From: a virus
Length of the DNA: 54,468 nt
Virus record (IMG/VR): IMGVR_UViG_3300025466_000003
Coordinates: 1-54,468 of that record
Reading direction: 5' to 3' (one strand)
Shown one piece after another: positions 5,150-35,679 of this stretch. Within the stretch, counting starts at the first letter, position 1. Each line of letters starts with the position of its first letter. The position numbers and the translations under genes are program-made. The notes below the pieces were generated by a model that had not been told where the DNA came from, did no database searches, and worked only from the letters and a program-made list of their open reading frames with translations.

Positions 5150-5647
5150 ATGGATTGGATTAAAACAATAGCACCTACGATATTTAGTGCAATTGGAGGA
5201 CCACTGGGTGGTTTGGCGTATGAAATGGTATCAAAGGTTCTTGGTGTATCCCAGGACGATGCTAAGAAAATGTTGGAGGATGGTAAATTATCTTCAGACC
5301 AGATTGCCGCAGTGCAACAAGCCGAGATAGCTTTAAAAGCCAAAGCACAAGAATTAAACCTAGATTTTGAGCAATTAGCCGTTCAAGACAGAAGTTCTGC
5401 TAGAACGATGCAGATTGCTACTCAGTCTTGGATACCTCCTGTTCTTGCTATAGGAATCACAGGCGGTTTCTTTGGAATACTCTTTGGGCTGATGTACGGT
5501 CAGGTACAGCACACGCCTCAGATCGACATCATGCTAGGTTCACTTGGAACTGCTTGGACGGGGGTGGTAGCCTTTTACTTTGGTAGTTCAGCAGGGAGTC
5601 AGAAGAAAGACGAACTTTTACATCAATCAACACCAGTTTCAAAATGA
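5150..5647 (+). CDS. Holin (GTA-type, C-terminal membrane helices)
   Basis: This 165-residue protein has a soluble helical N-terminal half with AVQDRSSARTMQ (77-88), then two strong membrane helices (about 95-116 and 126-146) and a basic tail with FGSSAGSQKKDELL. This pattern is typical of the phage/gene-transfer-agent 3TM holin family. The ATG at 5150 is preferred over an upstream in-frame TTG because AAGGAG lies 6 bases before it. The gene overlaps the endolysin by 4 bases, the classical holin-endolysin order. It would permeabilise the inner membrane to release the endolysin. Confidence 0.83.
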   Translation: MDWIKTIAPTIFSAIGGPLGGLAYEMVSKVLGVSQDDAKKMLEDGKLSSDQIAAVQQAEIALKAKAQELNLDFEQLAVQDRSSARTMQIATQSWIPPVLAIGITGGFFGILFGLMYGQVQHTPQIDIMLGSLGTAWTGVVAFYFGSSAGSQKKDELLHQSTPVSK

Positions 5648-24732: not shown

Positions 24733-25024
24733 ACTTTCTATAGATGCAATGACGGACGAGGAGATTGATAGGGCGTCTAAAAGGCACCAGATCTTCGCCA
24801 AACTGCGTAACTGTGACGAGTTGATAGATACCCTACTTAAACGCGACAGAGAGGAACTGGACATGATTATGTGTGTCGAATGCGCCCACATAGGAAAGTC
24901 GTCTAATGGGTGGCAATGTTCTAATGCAATCAAAGCTCAGGTAAGTACAAACCCTAAAGATCATGTTCCTAAGGCATTTGTGTTTATGTTACAGAGGTGC
25001 CCAGGATTTAGGGAGCGTAAATGA
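24707..25024 (+). CDS. Hypothetical protein with zinc-knuckle-like Cys pattern
   Basis: This 105-residue protein has a helical first half and a Cys-containing second half (CVECAHIGKSSNGWQCSNAIK and LQRCPGF), suggesting a zinc-binding knuckle. AGGGG lies 7 bases before the first ATG at 24707, which supports that start despite overlap with the small membrane protein. It overlaps the next gene by 4 bases. Unknown function. Confidence 0.7.
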   Translation: MRKKMMANELSIDAMTDEEIDRASKRHQIFAKLRNCDELIDTLLKRDREELDMIMCVECAHIGKSSNGWQCSNAIKAQVSTNPKDHVPKAFVFMLQRCPGFRERK

Positions 25025-25221
25025 CTAAAGATGAAGTAATTGAATTACTGAGCGAATATTTTACCGAAGGCATGGTGCGTACGATTATTGACAATCTAGT
25101 GGCGCATGAACGTGAGGAGTGTGCAAAGATATGTGATGCTATGGATAGCATAAGCGATTACTACACATTAAGGGTTGAGTTAATTTGTGCTCAAGCTATT
25201 CGTGCAAGGGGGCAAAAATGA
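25021..25221 (+). CDS. Small accessory protein of the 'EGMVRTI/IRARGQ' family, copy A
   Basis: This 66-residue protein shares a clear family signature with the protein at 25632: FTEGMVRTIIDNLVAHEREECAKI near residues 14-37 and the C-terminal AIRARGQK. The two are paralogues separated by about 600 bases. The C-terminal codons coincide with the ribosome binding site of the next gene. It is helical, with one Cys in the conserved EREECAKI helix and a second, CDAM, directly after it. No function is known. Confidence 0.75.
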   Translation: MTKDEVIELLSEYFTEGMVRTIIDNLVAHEREECAKICDAMDSISDYYTLRVELICAQAIRARGQK

Positions 25222-25418
25222 CGCAAGATAAAGATATGAATGAGATATTTGATTCGGCATTCACAAGCGCACTTATTACTGGTGTAGGAGTTGTCAAGAT
25301 AACCAACACAAGCTTAGGAATAAAGTGGGAGGCTGTAGCTCCTGATAAGTTTTTACAGCTATCAGATGAGCTTAAGTGGGTAGATAAAAACATGTTCAAA
25401 GGTGAAAAGAATGACTAA
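25218..25418 (+). CDS. Small accessory protein, 66 aa
   Basis: The ATG at 25218 overlaps the previous stop, with AAGGGGG 8-9 bases ahead in the junction repeat, and is preferred to an upstream in-frame start. The 66-residue product has a beta-rich centre (FTSALITGVGVVKITNTSLGIKWEAV). It lacks the ARGQ C-terminus of its neighbours, ending instead in KGEKND. The family is unknown. Confidence 0.68.
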   Translation: MTQDKDMNEIFDSAFTSALITGVGVVKITNTSLGIKWEAVAPDKFLQLSDELKWVDKNMFKGEKND

Positions 25419-25635
25419 AGAAGAAATAATTAGATTAGTTAAAAAAACTGATTTACTAGGAATTATTGATAGTCAATATTATGACAATGAACTATGGATT
25501 TTTGATGTAATGGAGTTTGCAAAACTAATAGCAGAAAAAGAACGTGAGAAGTTTTGCGCTGTACTTCGGCAATTACATGATTCATATTCATTGACAAGCG
25601 ATTCAAACGCCATCAGAGCAAGGGGACAAGAATGA
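25411..25635 (+). CDS. Accessory protein with IRARGQE C-terminus, copy B-like
   Basis: The ATG at 25411, with AAAGG ahead of it, gives 74 residues. The start TKEEIIRLVKKTDLLG and the segment EKEREKFCAVLRQLH followed by NAIRARGQE align with the family at 25021 and 25632, although the middle has diverged. It is another product ending in the tag encoded by the junction repeat. Confidence 0.72.
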   Translation: MTKEEIIRLVKKTDLLGIIDSQYYDNELWIFDVMEFAKLIAEKEREKFCAVLRQLHDSYSLTSDSNAIRARGQE

Positions 25636-25823
25636 TTAAAGATACAGCGGTACAAATACTTTTGGAACACTTTAGCGAAGGTATGGTACGCACTATTGTT
25701 GATGCCTTAGTTGAAGATGAACGAGAGGAGTGCGCCAAGATTGCTGACGAATATGCTGACGGGTTAGAGCGTAATTATTCTGAACTTATTGCGGACAAAA
25801 TCAGAGCAAGGGGACAAGAATGA
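25632..25823 (+). CDS. Small accessory protein of the 'EGMVRTI/IRARGQ' family, copy C
   Basis: This 63-residue protein is a paralogue of that at 25021: FSEGMVRTIVDALVEDEREECAKIADEY and the end KIRARGQE. Coding DNA is alike as well as protein, pointing to a recent duplication within the cassette array. Start and stop overlap its neighbours by 4 bases. Function unknown. Confidence 0.75.
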   Translation: MIKDTAVQILLEHFSEGMVRTIVDALVEDEREECAKIADEYADGLERNYSELIADKIRARGQE

Positions 25824-26011
25824 ATGAACCAGCATTCCCAAACGAAGGTTTTAATGGATGGGGTGAACCATTTAAAGGTATGACATTACGGGATTACTTT
25901 GCGGCTAAGGCTATGCAAAGCATTTTGTATGAAGGATTGGATGATAAAGAAACTGCAAAAAGCGCCTATGCTCTTGCAGATGAAATGATAAAAGCAAGGG
26001 GACAAGAATGA
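25820..26011 (+). CDS. Small accessory protein, GMTLRDYFAAKAMQ type
   Basis: This 63-residue protein contains GMTLRDYFAAKAMQSIL, a recognisable signature of a widespread family of small uncharacterised phage proteins, preceded by a Gly/Trp/Phe-rich N-terminus (PAFPNEGFNGWGEP). It ends in IKARGQE from the junction repeat. Its role is not known. Confidence 0.75.
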   Translation: MNEPAFPNEGFNGWGEPFKGMTLRDYFAAKAMQSILYEGLDDKETAKSAYALADEMIKARGQE

Positions 26012-26238
26012 TTAAGCTAACCTACGAACACATTTGTGACGGGTGTAATAAAACGCTTGATACAGAAGTTTATGAATGTAGTGATTACCCAAGTACGGAA
26101 TTTCCAAAAACACACAGAATGTTTTCATTTCATTGGCAAGGATTAAATGCCCAACTATGCAAAGATTGTGCAAAGCCTTTGTACGAAGCACAAAGAAAAA
26201 CTATGGAAATAATTATTGCTAACAGGGGGCAAGCATGA
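26008..26238 (+). CDS. Small zinc-ribbon-like accessory protein
   Basis: This 76-residue protein has two Cys pairs, CDGC (about 10-13) and CKDC (about 51-54), plus His residues between them, a likely zinc ribbon. The C-terminus IIANRGQA comes from a diverged copy of the junction repeat. Zinc-ribbon proteins of this size in phages often touch host polymerase or nucleic acid; here this is only a suggestion. Confidence 0.72.
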   Translation: MIKLTYEHICDGCNKTLDTEVYECSDYPSTEFPKTHRMFSFHWQGLNAQLCKDCAKPLYEAQRKTMEIIIANRGQA

Positions 26239-26501
26239 AGTTTAGAAAAAAACCCGTGGTGATAGAGGCAAAACAATGGTTTAAAGACGGCGACCATGAT
26301 TGTGTCAAAAAATTTTTTAATCACGACCCAGAAAAACATGGATGGGGTTGGATTGAAACGATTGAAGGTGGGCATATAGTCACACCTGGCGACTGGATTA
26401 TCACTGGCGTAAAGGGTGAACACTACCCGTGCAAGCCTGACATCTTTGAGGCAACCTACGAGCCAGTTGAAGTTGTCTTTGAATATAAAAGCTATCCATG
26501 A
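26235..26501 (+). CDS. PGDYG/PGDW-type phage protein
   Basis: This 88-residue protein begins KFRKKPVVIEAKQW and contains TPGDWIITGVKGEHYPCKPDIFEATYEPVE, the hallmark of a widespread small phage protein family with the PGD[WY] motif. The family is predicted to be a compact beta protein of unknown function, often encoded in early gene arrays. It overlaps the zinc-ribbon gene by 4 bases. Confidence 0.83.
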   Translation: MKFRKKPVVIEAKQWFKDGDHDCVKKFFNHDPEKHGWGWIETIEGGHIVTPGDWIITGVKGEHYPCKPDIFEATYEPVEVVFEYKSYP

Positions 26502-26509
26502 GGACAAGA

Positions 26510-26626
26510 ATGACTTATAAAAATACAGGCGTGATGTGCATGGTTACAGTTGCTGATGTATATCATAATGCCATAGAAATTATTAAGAGAGCATTTATAG
26601 AACATCAAAAGGACAAAAATGATTAA
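26510..26626 (+). CDS. Tiny hypothetical protein, 38 aa
   Basis: A 38-residue ORF begins after GAGGACAAGA, a degraded form of the junction repeat that supplies its ribosome binding site. The sequence has one predicted amphipathic helix (TVADVYHNAIEIIKRAFIEH). It overlaps the next ATG. Being so short, it may be a cryptic product, but the spacing and binding site are normal. Confidence 0.5.
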   Translation: MTYKNTGVMCMVTVADVYHNAIEIIKRAFIEHQKDKND

Positions 26627-26966
26627 GACAAAATGGAATGTAGAAGCTGTAAAGGCATATGAGACTGGGCAAGGCGTTGAGTTAGTAAATGAACCCTATC
26701 CACATTATGTACCTTCGACTACAGAATCAGAAAAGCAAGAGCATGGTGAGCCTGTGGGATGGATAGACAGTAAAGGAAACATGATTTGCACAAAAATAAA
26801 TGAATCTTGTAAACCTCTCTACACCACACCACAAACTAAAGAATGGGTAGGCTTGACTGAGGAAGATTTAAACCCAATTTGTGATGAATGGCGAATCATT
26901 TATGGAGCGTGGACACATGACTTTGCAAAAGAAATAGAAGCTAAGTTAAAGGAGAAGAACACATGA
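26619..26966 (+). CDS. Small accessory protein with EWVGLT module, copy 1
   Basis: This 115-residue protein ends with EWVGLTEEDLNPICDEW...KEIEAKLKEKNT, a module also present in the protein at 27150. The N-terminal part (HGEPVGWIDSKGNM...PLYTTP) is a common phage sequence in which the 'PLYTTP' motif precedes the EWVGLT helix. The C-terminal codons overlap the AAGGAG of the next gene's ribosome binding site. Function unknown. Confidence 0.75.
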   Translation: MIKTKWNVEAVKAYETGQGVELVNEPYPHYVPSTTESEKQEHGEPVGWIDSKGNMICTKINESCKPLYTTPQTKEWVGLTEEDLNPICDEWRIIYGAWTHDFAKEIEAKLKEKNT

Positions 26967-27157
26967 CACCAAAATTTACATTACTGCTCGAAAAGTGCGT
27001 ACTTGATGGGGTGATACTTGGTCATAAAAGAGCATACAAGCATAACACCATCCCTAGTGAATCTGATATCAACGAGTCAATTTTTAATGAGGTGATCAAC
27101 GAGCTACACGAGTGGTTTGACTTTGAAGTCAAGTCAAACAAGGAAGCGCATGATTGA
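26963..27157 (+). CDS. Small accessory protein, 64 aa
   Basis: This 64-residue helical acidic protein (SDINESIFNEVINELHEWFDFEV) overlaps the genes on both sides. No motif is recognised. AAGGAG lies 10 bases ahead of the ATG inside the previous coding sequence. Confidence 0.68.
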   Translation: MTPKFTLLLEKCVLDGVILGHKRAYKHNTIPSESDINESIFNEVINELHEWFDFEVKSNKEAHD

Positions 27158-27431
27158 AGAAGAAATGCACAAATGCACGGCTTGTTCGTGTGAATATACA
27201 GACGCCGAGGGTGGGATACAAGGTAATTTTGGAATTTTACCTATGTCATTTTGCCCAACTTGTTTAAGTTGTATGTTGGATATGGCGGATCAATTGAATC
27301 CACGAGAATGGGTAGGGTTGACTGATGATGAAATGAAAGCAATAGCGGAGTGGCAGTTAAGTGCTCATAGACCTTTGATTGACGTTATAAAAGCAGTAGA
27401 ACAGGCATTGAAGGAGAAAAATAATGAATGA
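27150..27431 (+). CDS. Zinc-knuckle accessory protein with EWVGLT module, copy 2
   Basis: The ATG at 27150 with AGGAAG upstream gives 93 residues. The N-terminus carries C-x2-C (CTACSC) and the pair FCPTCLSC, a likely zinc ribbon; the C-terminal half has REWVGLTDDEMKAIAEW, matching the module of the protein at 26619. It ends in ALKEKNNE, again encoded by the ribosome-binding stretch of the following gene. Confidence 0.75.
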   Translation: MIEEEMHKCTACSCEYTDAEGGIQGNFGILPMSFCPTCLSCMLDMADQLNPREWVGLTDDEMKAIAEWQLSAHRPLIDVIKAVEQALKEKNNE

Positions 27432-27612
27432 ATTAGATGTAATTGGTGGAATATTTGAGACTGAAACTGGAGCAAAAGGTTTTCAAAACTTGCTCAATGA
27501 GCCTACGGTTATAGTAAAATTACATATGCCAGATGCTCAACAGCCCGTTATGTACTTTGTTGCTAACAAAAGATTTTCTGATGATTTGGCCGAAATGTTA
27601 AATTTTAACTGA
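27424..27612 (+). CDS. Small hypothetical protein, 62 aa
   Basis: This 62-residue protein is mixed alpha/beta without Cys. It starts within the end of the zinc-knuckle gene and stops 10 bases before the next ATG. An imperfect TTAACTGAAAGTTAA palindrome spans its stop codon and the start of the next gene. The family is unknown. Confidence 0.65.
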   Translation: MNELDVIGGIFETETGAKGFQNLLNEPTVIVKLHMPDAQQPVMYFVANKRFSDDLAEMLNFN

Positions 27613-27621
27613 AAGTTAACA

Positions 27622-27828
27622 ATGGTTACAAAGAAACAATTGGCGCCAAAAAAGTTAATGGACGAGCCGACAAAGCCAGAGGCTACGTTTGTGGAGGTTA
27701 GCGATTATTTGGACTATGTAAGCTCAAGGCTCAAGTATCTGGACGCCAAAGTAATTGCCCTAAAAACCGAAAACACACAGCTAAAGTCCACTATAAAGCA
27801 GATGGAAAGACGTTTAATGGCAGGATAG
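27622..27828 (+). CDS. Small coiled-coil protein, last accessory gene before terminase
   Basis: This 68-residue protein has a Pro-rich N-terminus (MVTKKQLAPKKLMDEPTKPEA) and a long C-terminal coiled coil (LDYVSSRLKYLDAKVIALKTENTQLKSTIKQMERRL), the kind of leucine-spaced helix seen in small phage assembly or regulatory proteins. It is the last gene before the terminase small subunit. It could be a packaging accessory or scaffold-like coil; this is inference. Confidence 0.7.
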   Translation: MVTKKQLAPKKLMDEPTKPEATFVEVSDYLDYVSSRLKYLDAKVIALKTENTQLKSTIKQMERRLMAG

Positions 27829-27868
27829 AATATAATAAAGATTATCAAAGGTTCGACATTGGAATAAT

Positions 27869-28381
27869 ATGGATAACGTAACCGCCCCACAAAAGAAGAA
27901 GATTGGCCGCCCATCAAAATACACGCCTCAACTAGCAGATGAGATCTGTCAAAGGCTAAGTAATGGGGAGCCACTAAGACAAATATGTAGAGATGATCAT
28001 ATGCCTGCCTGGCAGAAGATCTATGAGTGGATGCATAAAGACCCTAATTTATCGGGAGCCATCGCACACGCACGTGATCAAGGAGGGGATGCCATAGCTG
28101 AGGACATCCTCAATGAGATTAGCCAAGAACCCGAAAGAATACTTACCGAGGGTGGAGGAAGGGTTGACCCAGGGTATGTCCAACTGGTCAAGATGAGGGC
28201 TGAGATCAAGCTAAAGCTCCTAGCTAAGTGGAACCCCAAGAAGTACGGCGACAGGACGATAATCGCCGGCGATAGGGAAAACCCCATGCAGTCTGAAATT
28301 ATTGTGACCGCCAAGGACGCAATGAACACTGTTGTTGAACACCTTATGCTTAAGAAACAAAGTGCAAACGCAGGAGATTGA
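27869..28381 (+). CDS. terS: Terminase small subunit
   Basis: This 170-residue protein begins with a basic IGRPSKYTPQLADEICQRLSNGEPLRQICRDDHMPAWQKIYEWMHKDP, a helix-turn-helix of the kind found in small terminases that recognise packaging sites. The middle (EDILNEISQEPERIL, and MRAEIKLKLLAKWNPKKYGDR) is the oligomerisation region typical of the family. The large subunit follows and overlaps the end. It recognises concatemeric DNA and recruits the motor. Confidence 0.9.
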   Translation: MDNVTAPQKKKIGRPSKYTPQLADEICQRLSNGEPLRQICRDDHMPAWQKIYEWMHKDPNLSGAIAHARDQGGDAIAEDILNEISQEPERILTEGGGRVDPGYVQLVKMRAEIKLKLLAKWNPKKYGDRTIIAGDRENPMQSEIIVTAKDAMNTVVEHLMLKKQSANAGD

Positions 28382-29813
28382 CGAGGTTATTGAGATACTT
28401 ACCTCTCCAGAGGTCAAGGCTCACTTTGCTGTATTACCGCCAGAGGATCAACTTGCCTACGCATCGAGGATCAAATGGCTATCAATAGCCCATGCTCACC
28501 AAGTGCCTGAGAGTTGGGACTGGTCAATTGCTTTAGTGCTCGGGGGACGGGGGGCGGGGAAGACCAGACTGGCGGCGGAGTGGCTTTGGTGGCAAGCATG
28601 GAGCAAGCCCAAGACTAGATGGTTGGTTGGCGCTCCAACGCACTCAGACCTAAAAGACGTCTGCTTCATGGGTGACTCTGGCTTGGTTAATGTCATACCC
28701 CAGATTCTCATTAAAAAGCACCTCAAGGACGATAATGAGATAACCCTGATCAACGGCTCTATTATTAAAGGCATCCCCGCCTCGGAGCCTGAGCGGTTCC
28801 GCGGCCCACAGTTTCATGGTGGATGGCTCGATGAGTTGGCTGCTTGGGATTACCTCCAAGAAGCTTGGGATCTGCTGAGCTTTTCGATCCGACTAGGCAA
28901 CAAAACACAACTTATGTGTACGACAACGCCTAAGCCTAAAGATTTAATAGTCGAGTTGGTGGGTCGAAATGGACAGGATGTATCTCTGACCACTGCATCC
29001 ACCTACGCCAACATTGATAACCTATCGGCTAACTTTAAGAAACAAATCGAGCAGTATGACCCTGATTCTGCACTTTACAGACAGGAAGTGTTGGCTGAGA
29101 TATTAGATCCTGAATTAACAGGTATTGTTAAGCGTAAGTGGTTCAAGCTCTGGCCTGCGTTTAATTCTCAGGGCGATGTTATGCCTTTACCTAAGCTAGA
29201 GTTTATCTGCATGAGTTTGGACTGTGCTTATACAGACAAGTCACAAAACGATCCTACTGCTTGCTTGGTATTTGGTGTGTTTAAGCCATTAGACGCTCCA
29301 ATGAGTGTGCTTATATTAGATGCGTGGCAAGATCGCTTACAGTATCCAGACCTCAAGCCAAGGGTTATGGATGAGTTCGAGGTGGTGTATGGTGAAGGCA
29401 AAGACAAAAAGCGCATAGAAATGATTCTGGTAGAGGATAAGAGCGCGGGTATCAGTCTTATACAAGACTTACAACGTGCTCAACTTCCTGTCGAAAGCTA
29501 TAACCCTGGTAAAGCAGATAAGGTTCAGAGGCTTTCAATTGTGGCCAATATCATACGGGCAGGAAGAGTCTGGGTGCCTGAGTCTAGTGTTAACAAGGGA
29601 TACGTCAGAGACTGGGCAGAAGGCGCCATAAGCCAGATTTGTGCTTTTCCTGATGCAACACATGATGATTACGTTGATGCGCTCACACAGGCTCTTAGGT
29701 GGTTGAGGGATGCAGGGTTCTTAAACATAGATCCTCCGCCTAGAGACGACTATGACCCAGAAGATTTAATTGATGCCAATCCAGTTCAAAGGGGTAATCC
29801 ATATGCTCAATGA
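28362..29813 (+). CDS. terL: Terminase large subunit (ATPase and nuclease)
   Basis: The reading frame opens at TTG 28332, but a GTG at 28362 is the more likely start (483 residues); the ribosome binding site is weak at both, so the start is uncertain. The ATPase shows Walker A GGRGAGKT (61-68), Walker B-like GGWLDELAAW and a coupling motif with MCTTTPKP. The C-terminal RNase H-fold nuclease has acidic residues in MSLDCAYTD, ILVEDKSAG and DATHDDYVDAL. It packages phage DNA into proheads and makes the headful or site-specific cut. The end overlaps a small ORF by 11 bases. Confidence 0.95.
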   Translation: MQTQEIDEVIEILTSPEVKAHFAVLPPEDQLAYASRIKWLSIAHAHQVPESWDWSIALVLGGRGAGKTRLAAEWLWWQAWSKPKTRWLVGAPTHSDLKDVCFMGDSGLVNVIPQILIKKHLKDDNEITLINGSIIKGIPASEPERFRGPQFHGGWLDELAAWDYLQEAWDLLSFSIRLGNKTQLMCTTTPKPKDLIVELVGRNGQDVSLTTASTYANIDNLSANFKKQIEQYDPDSALYRQEVLAEILDPELTGIVKRKWFKLWPAFNSQGDVMPLPKLEFICMSLDCAYTDKSQNDPTACLVFGVFKPLDAPMSVLILDAWQDRLQYPDLKPRVMDEFEVVYGEGKDKKRIEMILVEDKSAGISLIQDLQRAQLPVESYNPGKADKVQRLSIVANIIRAGRVWVPESSVNKGYVRDWAEGAISQICAFPDATHDDYVDALTQALRWLRDAGFLNIDPPPRDDYDPEDLIDANPVQRGNPYAQ

Positions 29814-29937
29814 TCTGATGTATGATCATGAAGGGGCGAAATATTGGGTTAGCGCCAGTACTTTTATTGATATATCGTCATTATTTGAAAATGGAAAACA
29901 CTGCTTTATGTGGTTCGCCCCACCTTTGGTTGATTAA
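29803..29937 (+). CDS. Small protein after terminase, 44 aa
   Basis: A 44-residue ORF overlaps the end of the terminase gene and is preceded by AAAGGGG at normal spacing. The sequence is aromatic and rich in Trp/Phe (GAKYWVSASTFIDISSLFENGKHCFMWFAPP). The family is unknown. The position and good ribosome binding site support expression. Confidence 0.6.
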   Translation: MLNDLMYDHEGAKYWVSASTFIDISSLFENGKHCFMWFAPPLVD

Positions 29938-29982
29938 GTATGTGTAGCAAGGGTACACTCATGTGTAATATTGCGAGGTGCT

Positions 29983-32900
29983 ATGCCCAATCCTAAAGCA
30001 AACAAACCCCTGACACTTGAACAAATCAAAGCAGATGCAATTGGCATGGGCATACCTGCCAGAGCATTGCTCGACATGATCTACTCTGGTGGACGCAGTG
30101 CTGTTGCAACTACAGCAGGATTGCCTGTTGACATGGCTAACACAGCCATTGGTTTGCATAACATGGCACGTGACGTCCGTCGCAGGAAGTTTGAAGGGTA
30201 TGAGCCAGGCACTATTCCTGGAGGCTCTGAGGACATCAAGGGCTTGATACCTGACTTAGCCAAAGATCCCAACTCTAACCTCAACAAGATGGCTGACTTC
30301 GGTGGTAGCTTTGCTGTTATCCCTGGAGCGGGTGAGGCGGCGGTAAAAGGCGCCAAGATGGTTGGGCAAGAGATTGCAGACAGGGTTGCTACAGGCCAGA
30401 AGTTAATGCCTGGTTCATTTGCTGAGCCACAGATGGCTATGTTCGCTGTCAAGCCCAAGGGTGGTAGTTGGTTGAATCATAGCCCTGAAGGATTTTTAAA
30501 AGGATTGAAGTCCGAAAACAGATTAATTAGTCCATCGCTTTTTGAAGGATTTGAGCAGTCGGCAAAAGACCCAACTGATCCATTGCAAGAAAGATCGATT
30601 CGTCGTTTGCGTGAGCACAATAATGAGATTGCCGTTAACAAATGGATTGACAAAAATCTAACCAATTACGTTAAAAATGAAATGGGTACTGAGCACGACC
30701 CAATACGTAAGTTGGCTGACCAAGGAATAATACACGCTCCAATTGATGATAGCCATATTTCTGGGCCACTTATTTATAACAAAAGAAGAGAAGCAAATTT
30801 ACCAGAGAAAGGATTTGCTACTACAGAACTTGGTAAGAAATGGGAAAAATTAACTGATAAATCAATTAATAATGTCCCGGTTAAAGAATATTTAAATGAG
30901 AATAGATATCAAGTAAGAGGTGGTTCTTTGCCTGCTCAATCGTTTAAGAATGAGGAAGAGGCAAATCATTACATGAACCAAGTTAAAGAAGTGGCAGGTG
31001 ATAAACCGTTTGGTGGTGAAGGTTTAACATTTAATAAAATACTAGAAAAAGATCCTTTTGTTAAAACTGAAATTGGTCCTGTTCATGAAAATCCTTGGTT
31101 ACTTAAAAAGAATCCAGAAGATACAGTACATCATGCTTTTGATTTGGAAACTTTAGGATTTGATCATTTAATGGATGTACTTAAAGAGGATTTGGCAAAC
31201 GGTCGAATACAACCAGAAGATCTAAAGAACTACAGCATTGATAGAGCGGTTCGTAGAGCGCATGAGTACAACGAGGATATGGCTAAGAAGATGGCTGAGA
31301 CTGCCATTAAGCAGACTGAAAGTATGCCCGTAGTCAAAGAATACCCATCTGGTCACAAATGGATTGAGTTGGCACCTGAAAAAATGCCAGAGGGATATAA
31401 GTTACCCGAAGGTTACACGGTGACAAAAGATGATAGGGCGGATTTTCAAAACACGCCTTGGTTCGTTAAAGGGCCACATGGCGACATTATCTCTGGCGAT
31501 AAAGGATTGTTTTACGCAACTCCTGAAGAGGCATTAAAAAATGCCACAGAAAAAACACACAGTGAAAATGCATATCAAAAACTATCTGATGCCCTACAGT
31601 ATGAAGGCGACACAATGGGTCACTGTGTTGGTGGCTATTGTCCTGACGTATTAGAAGGACGTTCACGCATATTTAGCTTGAGGGATGCTAAGGGTGAGCC
31701 TCATGTAACAATTGAAACTAAGCCAAATCCATATCCAGTTAGTGGTGAAGCGTTTGCCATGTTACCACAGAGTACAAAAGCACAATACGGTCAATATGTT
31801 CGTGAATGGAGACAACGCAATCCTGACATTCAAAATTTGACAGATGAGCATACGATTCAAGCGTTAAAAGAAGCGGGTGTTCCACCACAGCCAGACGACA
31901 TTGTTCAGATTAAAGGTAAAGGCAACAAAAAGCCTGTAGATAAGTACATTCCAATGGTACAGAACTTCCAACGTACTACTGGCTTTCCTATTAAGGGAGA
32001 TATACAGAACTCTGGATTTGTTGATACTCATCCTGAGTTAAAAAAATTGGGAGAAAGTATTGGTTTAAAAGTACCAGATTATTTAACTAAAGACGAAGAA
32101 AATGTTTTACACCAACAAGTTGCTCCTCATATTGAGTCAATGGTTAAAAACGCAAACGATTTTTTAGATACTCATCCTGCATTTGAACCTCATCGTCAAG
32201 CAACTAGAGAATTTAATGATGCTCTTAGCAAAGAGTTTTCAACTAATGAGCCAGTTTATACTCAACAAGAGATGAATGAGCTTGAGCGTAGATCGTTGCA
32301 ATCAATTCATCCAGAATTTCCTTACCATTTTAATGAAATAAAAAAAGTATTAAATAATCCAGAAGAACATGGTGAAGGTGATCCATTAAAGACTCAACTA
32401 TATAATCTTGGAAAAATTGATGAGCTTCGTAACAAAGTAGGAGATGTTCCTACTGTACAGCCAACAGTAACTCCTAATAATCCACAGGGTTTAGCTAAAG
32501 GTGGAAGGGTCAAGCGTAAGGTTCATGTTGCTAATGACTTGGATATGATGCGCCATGAGATCCAGATGAAGGATAGCCCCAAAGGATTTGCAGGCGGTGG
32601 GATTGTGGACAAGATGATTGGCAAAGGAGTATCAAAACTATTCTCTGCTGTGGATAAGACCGCGGCTGAGTTGCCAAGGAGTAAGGGTACGGGCAAAGAG
32701 TTTATCATTGAGCTTAGCAAGAAGCCCGGCGTAAAGAAGGCTGAACTGGCAGACAGAAACTTGCACGAGATCAACGATCTGCCTAAGATGACTAAGGATG
32801 AGTTCCAAGCTGAACTTGCTAAACGTCCTGTGCCAAAAGTATATAAAAAAATATTGAGTAATGACGCAGAACCTTTACAGATTATTAAACACAATCCTGA

Positions 32901-35679
32901 TAGCATACTAGACGACAAACACTGGGTTGTCGATAGCAATGGTGAACCAGTCACAGCCCATCCATTCCCATCGAGAGAGGATGCTGAATCTCATATTGAA
33001 AATCATGAGATAGATGAGAATCAGACACACCATGAGGGTTTTAAGCTTCCTGGTGGTAATAATTATCAGGAGCATTTGTACAAGTATGAGCCAGAAGGAC
33101 AACCACCTTTTGTGGCAAATGAACATCATTTCGGTGCTGAGCCTAATGTATTAGCTAGTGCTCGAACAGTTGACCGTAGAACACCTGATGGCAAGAAAAT
33201 CTTACATGTTGAGGAGATTCAATCTGATTGGCATCAGGATGGACGTAAGTATGGTTATAAGGACTCAAATCCAGAAGCAAAAATAGAGCAATTAAAAGAA
33301 CTAAAACAAACATTTGATGATCTTAACAAGCGCAGAAGAATTTTGCATGAGCAAGCTTTAAGAGAGCCAGAGGCAGGACTAAAATTTGAAAGTTTGATGG
33401 AAGAAGCAAATGGAATAACGCCTAAATTGCTTGAATTAAATAGTCAGATGTATGATCTTGATCATTTGACAAGACAAAATATAAATGCAGTACCAGACGC
33501 TCCATTCAAAAATAATTGGGAGCACATGGTCAGCAAGGACTTAGTCAAACACGCCATTGACAATGGGTATGACGCAATAGCATTGACCCCCGGGAAAGAG
33601 CAGGCAGATAGATATAGCTTGGCTAAGCAAATAAACAAGCTTATTTATGTTGACACTGCTTCTGGAACTGGTAAGTTTGGTGAGCATTTACATGGAGAGC
33701 CAACAGCGGGGAAGCTACAAGCTTTTGATCATCGTGGAAATAAAGTAATTGATGAAGATATTAATCCACATGAATTACCTGATTACATTGGGAAGGAAGC
33801 CGCTAGTAAACTGCTTGAATCCAAGCCTTTTGATGTAAGTGAAAATAGTGGATTTGATGGCAATCGTTGGAGAGAGTTAGCAAATCAAGATTTGAATATT
33901 GGTGGCGAGGGCATGAAAGCCGCATACGACAAGCGCATCCCCAACACCTTCAACGACATTGGTAAGCCATACGGCGCTGAGATGAAGCTTAATGAGTTAC
34001 CAGTATTAAATAGTGGTAAACATTACGCAAACAGAACAATCGAGGGCGATAGTTTTAATGTCATGGATGGTAATGACAACATAATTTCAAGCCATCCAAC
34101 GCAACAAGAAGCAAACATAAAAGCTAGAGAACTAAACTCTACTCCTCTTCATTACATGGAATTCACACCAGAGATGAAACAAAACGTAGCCACAGAAAGT
34201 TTACCTGCCTATGCAGATGGTGGACAAGTAAAACACCCAGGCTTCATAAACCCATCTTTAAAGCTTGCTAACGGGTCTGTCACACTCAATCCTTTAGAGT
34301 TTATGCCAAACTATCAAAGGGGCGGTAAAGTCCACGTAACAGACGATTTGGACATGATGAGGCATGAGGTTCATATGGCAGGCGGTGGATCATTAACTAA
34401 TAATGTTCTCAAGAAAGTTGGTCAATTTATAACCAAGGCCGAGAAAGTACCTGCTGTTCCTTTGAGCATACCAAGATCTACTCCAAAAACTTTAGAAGAT
34501 ATTGACAAAATTGCTACGCGAGTTGCCAAGCAGATGATTGGTGAGCACGTCAGGCCTGAGAACTCGACTAAGACGGTTAATCTTGCAGGAAGATCAATGA
34601 GGGAGAGCGAAAGGCTTAAGGGCCTTCCGTATCAGATACAACCAACTGGAACCGCTCAAAAGGCAGACGCATATACACCACAAATTGGCGATGTGAATGT
34701 AGCTATTCCTGGAGACCAAACTATTTCTGATTCAATCTTGCGTCATGCAGGAGATATAGAAGACATCAACTCTATACAGGAAGGTGGTTCAAAATATGGA
34801 CTCGGCAAAATGTCGCTTGAGCATCCATTATTTTGGGCCTCTGGTGAAGATCCCGCTCAAATGGCGCAAGATAAGATTACAAGATTAGCGGGTTATTACG
34901 AACCAAGCCGTGTCATTGGTCAGCATTTGGGTATGGGTCCAGTAGCTAACAACTTTGCTATGCATTTAGCAGATGCAAACCTTCGTGCTACTGATTTGTC
35001 AAAGATGAAACCAGAACAGATGTATAGCTTTGATAACATCATTGCTAATGGCTATGTTAAGAAAAATGCTAAGACTGGTGAGTATGAGCACATTAATTTT
35101 CCGCATTGGCCTGGTATAGCTGATCCAGAAAGCGCATACAAAGCTATGCAAGAAGATCCAGAGTTACGTAAATGGTACAACAGTAGGATGAAAACTCCTG
35201 ACATTACCAGTGCTCATGGATTGCCAAATGGATTGGATATTCAATGGGCCATTACAGAGCCTGCACTGCGTAACATGGAGGTTAATTTAACTGGATTGTC
35301 TGCGGGTAAGATGGTTCCGGGCGCTGAATTAACAGACACGGCTAATCACAATACTTATAACAAAGGCATTCAAGGATTAGCATTGCAGCCACAGACCCCT
35401 CCTGCACCATTTGAAATTACATTTCCAGATGCTACTCAACACGTTAGATCGACTAAGAATCCTACTGACTTTACTGGAACCATACAAAAAGTATTTCCTC
35501 ACCAATTGGTTGATGACCAATATTTAAATGAAGTCGGACAATACAACGACTTAATTAAAAAATATACTGGTCAGAAAAAGGGTGGTAGGGTTAAAGCTAA
35601 AAAGGCAAATAAAAAAGCCAATGTTCAAATAACTGACAACATAGAAATAATGCGTCACGAATTAAGTACAAGAGGATAA
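29983..35679 (+). CDS. Giant multidomain phage protein (polyvalent-like), 1,898 aa
   Basis: The ATG at 29983 has GAGG 5 bases upstream and is preferred to an upstream TTG. The N-terminus (LTLEQIKADAIGMGIPARALLDMIYSGGRS, then AVIPGAGEAAVKGAKMVGQ) is an Ala/Gly-rich helical region. Residues about 530-580 carry a PcfJ-like motif (MGHCVGGYC near 545-553, then IFSLRDAKGEPHVTIE). A second domain at about 1060-1210 has VEEIQSDWHQDGRKYGY and DNGYDAIALTPGKEQADRY, known from very large phage proteins. Three segments end in a GG[RK]V-x-V[HQ]-MRHE tag, near residues 839-857, 1447-1462 and 1876-1892. It sits between terminase and portal and is the longest gene here. It may be packaged with the genome and act on the host. 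Confidence 0.75.
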   Translation: MPNPKANKPLTLEQIKADAIGMGIPARALLDMIYSGGRSAVATTAGLPVDMANTAIGLHNMARDVRRRKFEGYEPGTIPGGSEDIKGLIPDLAKDPNSNLNKMADFGGSFAVIPGAGEAAVKGAKMVGQEIADRVATGQKLMPGSFAEPQMAMFAVKPKGGSWLNHSPEGFLKGLKSENRLISPSLFEGFEQSAKDPTDPLQERSIRRLREHNNEIAVNKWIDKNLTNYVKNEMGTEHDPIRKLADQGIIHAPIDDSHISGPLIYNKRREANLPEKGFATTELGKKWEKLTDKSINNVPVKEYLNENRYQVRGGSLPAQSFKNEEEANHYMNQVKEVAGDKPFGGEGLTFNKILEKDPFVKTEIGPVHENPWLLKKNPEDTVHHAFDLETLGFDHLMDVLKEDLANGRIQPEDLKNYSIDRAVRRAHEYNEDMAKKMAETAIKQTESMPVVKEYPSGHKWIELAPEKMPEGYKLPEGYTVTKDDRADFQNTPWFVKGPHGDIISGDKGLFYATPEEALKNATEKTHSENAYQKLSDALQYEGDTMGHCVGGYCPDVLEGRSRIFSLRDAKGEPHVTIETKPNPYPVSGEAFAMLPQSTKAQYGQYVREWRQRNPDIQNLTDEHTIQALKEAGVPPQPDDIVQIKGKGNKKPVDKYIPMVQNFQRTTGFPIKGDIQNSGFVDTHPELKKLGESIGLKVPDYLTKDEENVLHQQVAPHIESMVKNANDFLDTHPAFEPHRQATREFNDALSKEFSTNEPVYTQQEMNELERRSLQSIHPEFPYHFNEIKKVLNNPEEHGEGDPLKTQLYNLGKIDELRNKVGDVPTVQPTVTPNNPQGLAKGGRVKRKVHVANDLDMMRHEIQMKDSPKGFAGGGIVDKMIGKGVSKLFSAVDKTAAELPRSKGTGKEFIIELSKKPGVKKAELADRNLHEINDLPKMTKDEFQAELAKRPVPKVYKKILSNDAEPLQIIKHNPDSILDDKHWVVDSNGEPVTAHPFPSREDAESHIENHEIDENQTHHEGFKLPGGNNYQEHLYKYEPEGQPPFVANEHHFGAEPNVLASARTVDRRTPDGKKILHVEEIQSDWHQDGRKYGYKDSNPEAKIEQLKELKQTFDDLNKRRRILHEQALREPEAGLKFESLMEEANGITPKLLELNSQMYDLDHLTRQNINAVPDAPFKNNWEHMVSKDLVKHAIDNGYDAIALTPGKEQADRYSLAKQINKLIYVDTASGTGKFGEHLHGEPTAGKLQAFDHRGNKVIDEDINPHELPDYIGKEAASKLLESKPFDVSENSGFDGNRWRELANQDLNIGGEGMKAAYDKRIPNTFNDIGKPYGAEMKLNELPVLNSGKHYANRTIEGDSFNVMDGNDNIISSHPTQQEANIKARELNSTPLHYMEFTPEMKQNVATESLPAYADGGQVKHPGFINPSLKLANGSVTLNPLEFMPNYQRGGKVHVTDDLDMMRHEVHMAGGGSLTNNVLKKVGQFITKAEKVPAVPLSIPRSTPKTLEDIDKIATRVAKQMIGEHVRPENSTKTVNLAGRSMRESERLKGLPYQIQPTGTAQKADAYTPQIGDVNVAIPGDQTISDSILRHAGDIEDINSIQEGGSKYGLGKMSLEHPLFWASGEDPAQMAQDKITRLAGYYEPSRVIGQHLGMGPVANNFAMHLADANLRATDLSKMKPEQMYSFDNIIANGYVKKNAKTGEYEHINFPHWPGIADPESAYKAMQEDPELRKWYNSRMKTPDITSAHGLPNGLDIQWAITEPALRNMEVNLTGLSAGKMVPGAELTDTANHNTYNKGIQGLALQPQTPPAPFEITFPDATQHVRSTKNPTDFTGTIQKVFPHQLVDDQYLNEVGQYNDLIKKYTGQKKGGRVKAKKANKKANVQITDNIEIMRHELSTRG

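Follow-up and report, generated by a model that had tools for sequence, protein, structure and literature searches.

A short repeat that links a run of small viral genes was found to be a translation-coupling joint, and it probably doubles as the homology through which these genes are shuffled as cassettes. The window, i.e., the whole stretch of DNA analyzed here, is the IMG/VR virus record IMGVR_UViG_3300025466_000003, 54,468 bases long. The repeat, AAGGGGACAAGAATGA, is composed of the Shine-Dalgarno sequence AAGGGG, a spacer of 6 nucleotides (nt), and an ATGA stop/start overlap. Three exact copies were found, at 25620-25635, 25808-25823, and 25996-26011, along with variants at 25206, 25399, 26223, 26498, and 26607. 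When up to three mismatches were accepted, the window contained 10 matches against 0.73 expected, and no shuffled sequence reached 10. At every exact copy, as had been proposed in a preliminary description of this DNA, AAGGGG and the ATGA overlap fall together with the last codons of the upstream gene. The anatomy of translation coupling is therefore present in the DNA; ribosomes would be expected to act on it from established knowledge, and the predicted anti-Shine-Dalgarno pairing at the joints behind RGQ endings was -7.6 to -10.5 kcal/mol. The overlaps lie at 25218, 25632, 25820, 26008, and 26235, with a frame-2 variant at 25411. The run is organized as follows (protein lengths in amino acids, aa):

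25021-25221, + strand: gene 1, 66 aa, ERE family (HEREECAKIC...AIRARGQK)
25108-25122, + strand: EREEC hinge of gene 1, an internal swap point, with counterparts at 25540 (gene 3) and 25719 (gene 4)
25206-25221, + strand: junction of genes 1 and 2, AAGGGGGCAAAAATGA, two mismatches to the repeat
25218-25418, + strand: gene 2, 66 aa, ending in FKGEKND and stop, junction read in frame 2
25399-25414, + strand: junction of genes 2 and 3, AAGGTGAAAAGAATGA, two mismatches
25411-25635, + strand: gene 3, 74 aa, ERE family, C module EREKFCAVLRQLHDSYSLTSDSNAIRARGQE
25620-25635, + strand: junction of genes 3 and 4, exact AAGGGGACAAGAATGA, site of a whole-gene insertion in locus L040
25632-25823, + strand: gene 4, 63 aa, ERE family, N module MIKDTAVQILLEHFSEGMVRTI
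25808-25823, + strand: junction of genes 4 and 5, exact AAGGGGACAAGAATGA
25820-26011, + strand: gene 5, 63 aa, MTLRDYFAAKAMQ...ADEMIKARGQE, phrog_2201
25996-26011, + strand: junction of genes 5 and 6, exact AAGGGGACAAGAATGA
26008-26238, + strand: gene 6, 76 aa, Cys-rich, C-terminus NRGQA
26223-26238, + strand: junction of genes 6 and 7, CAGGGGGCAAGCATGA, three mismatches, where the homology to locus L620 stops
26235-26501, + strand: gene 7, 88 aa, MKFRKKPVVIEA, phrog_419
26498-26513, + strand: junction of genes 7 and 8, ATGAGGACAAGAATGA, with the stop of gene 7 inside the repeat and the Shine-Dalgarno sequence partly non-coding
26510-26626, + strand: gene 8, ending in HQKDKND and stop (frame 2)
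26607-26622, + strand: junction of genes 8 and 9, AAAAGGACAAAAATGA, three mismatches, the stop TAA coming from ATGATTAA
26949-26966, + strand: second junction type, AAGGAGAAGAACACATGA, tail KEKNT

The preliminary description had five consecutive genes ending in RGQ(E/K/A). Five genes (1, 3, 4, 5, and 6) do end in this way, but they are not consecutive: gene 2 interrupts the series with FKGEKND, because a like junction is read there in another frame, its stop TAA being contributed by ATGACTAA of gene 3. In L100, the homologue of gene 2 carries the canonical AAAGGGGACAAGAATGA, which is read as KGDKND. The statement that the proteins before the shared ending are mostly unrelated applies to genes 5 and 6 only, because genes 1, 3, and 4 are recognizable homologues (EREECAKIC...IRARGQ family). 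The junctions were indeed found in the interval 25199-26238 originally assigned to them, but related joints extend beyond it, at 26498-26513 and 26607-26622, followed by the second type.

Different cassettes at the same junctions were found in near-identical genomes, as the proposed exchange had predicted. Locus L620 and the window matched at 100% identity across 3,454 nt (26547-30000) and were identical again from 26064 to 26183, and the homology was lost just past the joint at 26223-26238. Behind this joint, the window continued with MKFRKKP..., and L620 with MKHKHADLI..., an ERE gene, and a gene 8 whose 5' half differed and whose 3' part was identical in both. In L040, one additional gene was located exactly between the counterparts of window genes 3 and 4, at 25635; gene 3 was also present in L007.

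To quantify such cases, a one-sided switch was defined as at least 85% identity on one 60-nt flank and less than 60% on the other. Among locus pairs sharing the exact 18-mer GCAAGGGGACAAGAATGA, identity was found upstream only in 178, downstream only in 53, and on both sides in 34. Homology ends fell at junctions used as search patterns 226 times, against 9.2 at random, and at junctions never used as patterns 84 times, against 4.25, so that canonical-like joints carried them at about 20-25 times the random frequency. The fraction of joints with a homology end was 0.46 for canonical-like joints and 0.135 for other ATGA joints within 1 kb. In an independent set of loci fetched by gene bodies, homology ends were detected at 71/83 canonical joints, compared with 47/106 of the other ATGA joints no more than 1 kb away and 107/496 of those elsewhere. 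A dependence on the number of mismatches was also observed, since 37 of the 41 junctions with one or two mismatches carried ends, compared with fractions of 0.25-0.34 in the classes with six or more. The loci are mutually related and the counts are not independent; therefore, no exact probability is claimed. As judged from these comparisons, exchange with endpoints at these joints has happened, and one short sequence is common to the borders of the exchanged modules across phages. The endpoint data are a correlation, from which we infer strand exchange within the repeat itself and an enzyme responsible for it.

The junction DNA is widespread. In the search of phage genomes that had been suggested for it, the exact 18-mer was found in at least 120 IMG/VR viral stretches (counts from scans of the collection are lower bounds); as a rough estimate, chance would give an 18-mer on the order of one occurrence in such a collection. 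Among the matches listed, ATCAGAGCAAGGGGACAA was followed by GCATGA in 95/123 and by GAATGA in 17/123, so RGQA is commoner than RGQE. When loci were fetched by gene bodies, without use of the tail, the mismatches to the 18-mer showed a two-peaked distribution, with 82, 52, 26, 30, and 13 joints at zero to four mismatches, respectively, and a broad peak at 9-11. Near-canonical joints had 16 protein families upstream and 91 downstream. In the cultured phage collection, gene 4 gave no tblastn match, a consensus ERE protein gave only three distant ones, and the junction DNA gave no convincing match. Phage DSL-LC05 has a distant ERE relative with the C-terminus IRARSNT, and cultured homologues of gene 5 (MTLRDYF) end in ADAMLKAR-like sequences followed by variable tails. 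When GTDB was scanned with a junction pattern of 8-fold degeneracy, most matches were chance-like; the gene families accompanied it only in L360, L375, and L411, from uncultured beta proteobacteria/Burkholderiales, which we regard as a weak pointer to the host.

The junction is a real DNA element and not a peptide tag. An IRARGQx scan that allowed every codon combination showed that the Arg at the Shine-Dalgarno position was encoded by AGG in 92/98 cases and the Arg two codons earlier in 1/98, and that the preceding Ala was GCA in 94/98; the background use of these codons is 13.7% and 26.7%, respectively. Among gene 4 relatives found through other parts of the protein, the Shine-Dalgarno Arg was AGG in 64/66. 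Moreover, the same DNA was read in frame 2, giving ..GDKN(D/E) or similar endings (e.g., ..QGDKND and stop), in 15 cases from several families without obvious resemblance, window genes 2 and 8 among them, the stop often being contributed by the downstream gene through its ATGACTAA or ATGATTAA. Within 8 nt past the start, a frame-2 stop was present at 36% of canonical-like, 16% of nearby, and 10% of distant ATGA joints. In L548 and L584, the stop precedes the Shine-Dalgarno sequence, and that part is non-coding.

The contrary explanation, that the (I)RARGQ(E/A) peptide is itself functional and selected, with the DNA identity following from it, could draw on the IRAR kept at the ERE-family C-terminus even in the distant DSL-LC05 relative, and on the ADAMLKAR ending of MTLRDYF proteins. 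However, AGG is confined to one of two Arg codons, the junction DNA is also read in the other frame or not at all, and AAGGGG is constant even where the residue preceding the second Arg changes: the drifted peptides IRKRG, IEGRGQE, and KELRGQE leave it intact. The finding named beforehand as favoring selection on the peptide, i.e., C-termini kept in homologues without such a junction, was not obtained: across the whole viral collection, just 12 stretches contained IRARGQE followed by TAA, 10 of them with a TAATG overlap with the next gene, and 76/81 ERE-family members found without the tail were coupled. We count this near-absence of uncoupled copies as a refutation and, together with codon bias and two-frame use, it led us to reject a functional tag, an explanation we regard as highly improbable. 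Although these protein families have I(R/K)AR as an ancient, conserved terminus, the "C-terminal tag" should not be taken for a functional peptide. In L129, L139, and L210, IRARGQ lies a few residues inside the protein and is followed by an extension, in some with a new Shine-Dalgarno-like sequence; these are possibly fossil junctions read through after stop loss.

In the ERE-family genes, homology ends also cluster at the EREECAK codons. The C module LRQLHDSYSLTSDSNAIRARGQE of window gene 3 was found combined with 9 different N modules, and the N module MIKDTAVQILLEHFSEG... of window gene 4 with 11 C modules elsewhere. This hinge is a second swap point, located inside genes, and part of the system. 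In addition, a pattern-free count of all coupled joints revealed a second junction type, GAGAAGAACACATGA (tail KEKNT), with 100 contexts, 69 upstream groups, and 83 downstream groups. Joints of this type, which was never used as a search pattern, carried a homology end in 41/62 cases, compared with 40/102 of their neighbors. The AAGGAGAAGAACACATGA junction, present in the window and in loci L610-L632, likewise gives unrelated proteins a KEKNT tail. Separately, L021 and L060 differed from L110 (oriented positions ~5465 and 5189-5338) by in-frame gain or loss of an N-terminal module of ~150 nt, flanked by short AAAGATGA repeats and lying just behind a canonical junction.

We propose that the AAGGGG contained in the final codons of a small gene would act as the Shine-Dalgarno sequence of the next, and ATGA as stop and start together. 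Because selection keeps the junction DNA nearly constant, otherwise unrelated cassettes share 15-24 nt of identity; at this repeat, they may be joined by a recombination process of the phage or the host, probably one based on annealing. Every product would at once be a working coupled operon, whatever the cassette encodes, and half-genes would be exchanged likewise at the EREECAK hinge. The window encodes an exonuclease and a RusA-like resolvase, consistent with this mechanism. The protein beside the exonuclease was considered as a recombinase and rejected, as it is of a replication-initiation type (NF046043). Several observations weigh against the proposal. No gene of the window was identified as an annealing recombinase, and the 15-24 nt of shared identity is under the minimum of ~30 bp described for RecA and Red (PMC2327257). 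The joints of the window and L620 differ by three bases, and a small upstream patch differs too; therefore, that crossover can only be placed within the last ~55 nt of gene 6, joint included. One family supplies 291/333 (~87%) of the upstream proteins at near-canonical junctions, so that part of the shared sequence reflects common descent of its 3' end. The mismatch series is uneven (9/15 at five mismatches), and canonical junctions lie in the most variable neighborhood, which may inflate the endpoint rates and is partly controlled by the 1-kb comparison. Finally, nearly all the evidence comes from uncultivated contigs.

These data were also weighed under other explanations. If illegitimate recombination were random and only boundary-exact products survived, the repeat would be carried along with no role in crossover. 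This selection-only scenario gains from the homology requirement of the known systems and from the excess of homology ends at other ATGA joints (304 against 83.6 at random), but equally coupled ATGA joints within 1 kb reach about half the canonical endpoint rate or less, a like trend is seen at the second junction type, and the conserved intragenic hinge is a further site where endpoints accumulate; thus, we consider it unlikely. It is very unlikely that unrelated genes independently evolved a good Shine-Dalgarno/overlap tail in the absence of recombination. The strong AGG and GCA bias at the Shine-Dalgarno position would fit such convergence, but the identity spans at least 18 nt, including positions without anti-Shine-Dalgarno pairing, its mean is 14.7/18 here against 9.3/18 among the functionally equal lambda nin joints, and sharp drops from 97-100% to ~30% identity require exchange.

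Tandem duplication inside this phage, with exchange as an incidental event, would account for the homology of genes 1, 3, and 4. However, the junction is also carried by the unrelated genes 5 and 6, other phages have these cassettes in a different order, and the near-identical L620 and L040 hold different cassettes at the same joints, making this origin of the repeats exceedingly improbable. As all key data are from metagenome assemblies, short repeats could have led the assembler to join unrelated contigs. Against this, 23 junction arrangements recur in at least two metagenomes and, for 34 swapped pairs, both arrangements do so (recurrence was counted per data set, not per lake, and some IMG sets may re-assemble one sample); moreover, the k-mers commonly used in assembly are longer than these repeats of 15-24 nt. 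Such an artifact is scarcely credible. Collectively, the proposal of the preliminary description, a modular cassette array exchanged at junction repeats with coupling kept, is supported, with the EREECAK hinge added and the peptide sense of "tag" dropped. A further idea, which we find doubtful, is that the junctions form a natural assembly standard: a few fixed types (RGQ, KEKNT) would be kept across a large phage pool partly for interchangeability, a dedicated or preferred recombination activity would act on them, and small-gene and half-gene repertoires would be continually reassorted.

The arrangement resembles the lambda ninR "chain of interlinked genes" (Kroger and Hobom 1982, as cited in PMC8022706), with a run of small accessory genes flanked by replication genes (DnaB-like helicase, RusA) on one side and the late region on the other, ATGA overlaps, and the Shine-Dalgarno sequence inside the upstream gene. 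In contrast, the nin joints have only ATGA and a high purine content in common (mean identity 9.3/18, maximum 13/18), whereas here one and the same 15-18-mer is found in unrelated genes and is read in two frames. Genes 1-7 had no match to nin families in a comparison by family name only, most having no family at all. The lambdoid boundary sequences (Clark et al. 2001, as cited in PMC2327257 and discussed in PMC3029335) embody the same idea, short shared borders permitting homologous recombination between modules. However, shared boundary sequences are not identifiable at most mosaic joints (PMC3029335; PMC2327257), whereas here the shared sequence is at many joints and is itself the translation-coupling signal. 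The Start-Associated Sequences of Cluster K mycobacteriophages, a 13-bp repeat upstream of starts, of unknown function and not described as a swap point (PMC3203893), similarly have a Shine-Dalgarno core directly before starts of different gene families; their consensus is GGGATAGGAGCCC, unlike the AAGGGGACAAGAATGA or AAGGAGAAGAACACATGA of our joints, which we thus place outside that group. Integron cassettes likewise form modular arrays of exchangeable small genes, but the joints here are coding and translation-coupled, and neither an integrase nor an attC-like site is part of them, although no search aimed at these was made. No description of this junction was found in the open-access literature, most subscription papers lying outside the search.

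It is a long-standing question whether mosaic joints arise from illegitimate recombination filtered by selection or from homologous recombination at boundary sequences. A defined joint sequence of 15-18 nt with an independent coupling function, two frames, and a natural mismatch series makes this question directly testable. Whole-gene and half-gene swaps at joints help to explain the genome mosaics of a large group of uncultured bacterial viruses. As a caution for annotation, the joint also accounts for apparent conserved C-terminal motifs of small phage proteins as by-products of ribosome binding sites.

In the window annotation, the run sits between replication genes and terminase genes, with a primosomal protein, the DnaB-like helicase, the RusA-like resolvase, and HNH upstream, and terminase subunits downstream, at 27869 and 28332. 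No curated family was above the cut-off for genes 1-7. At 26840-26878 and 27305-27343, neighboring genes share an EWVGLT(D/E)(D/E) module and otherwise differ, and this is likely a shuffled module. Lastly, a 1,902-aa open frame at 29971-35679 contains several copies of a (K/R)GG(R/K)V..DxLDMMRHE-like motif between differing parts, giving it the look of a composite protein.
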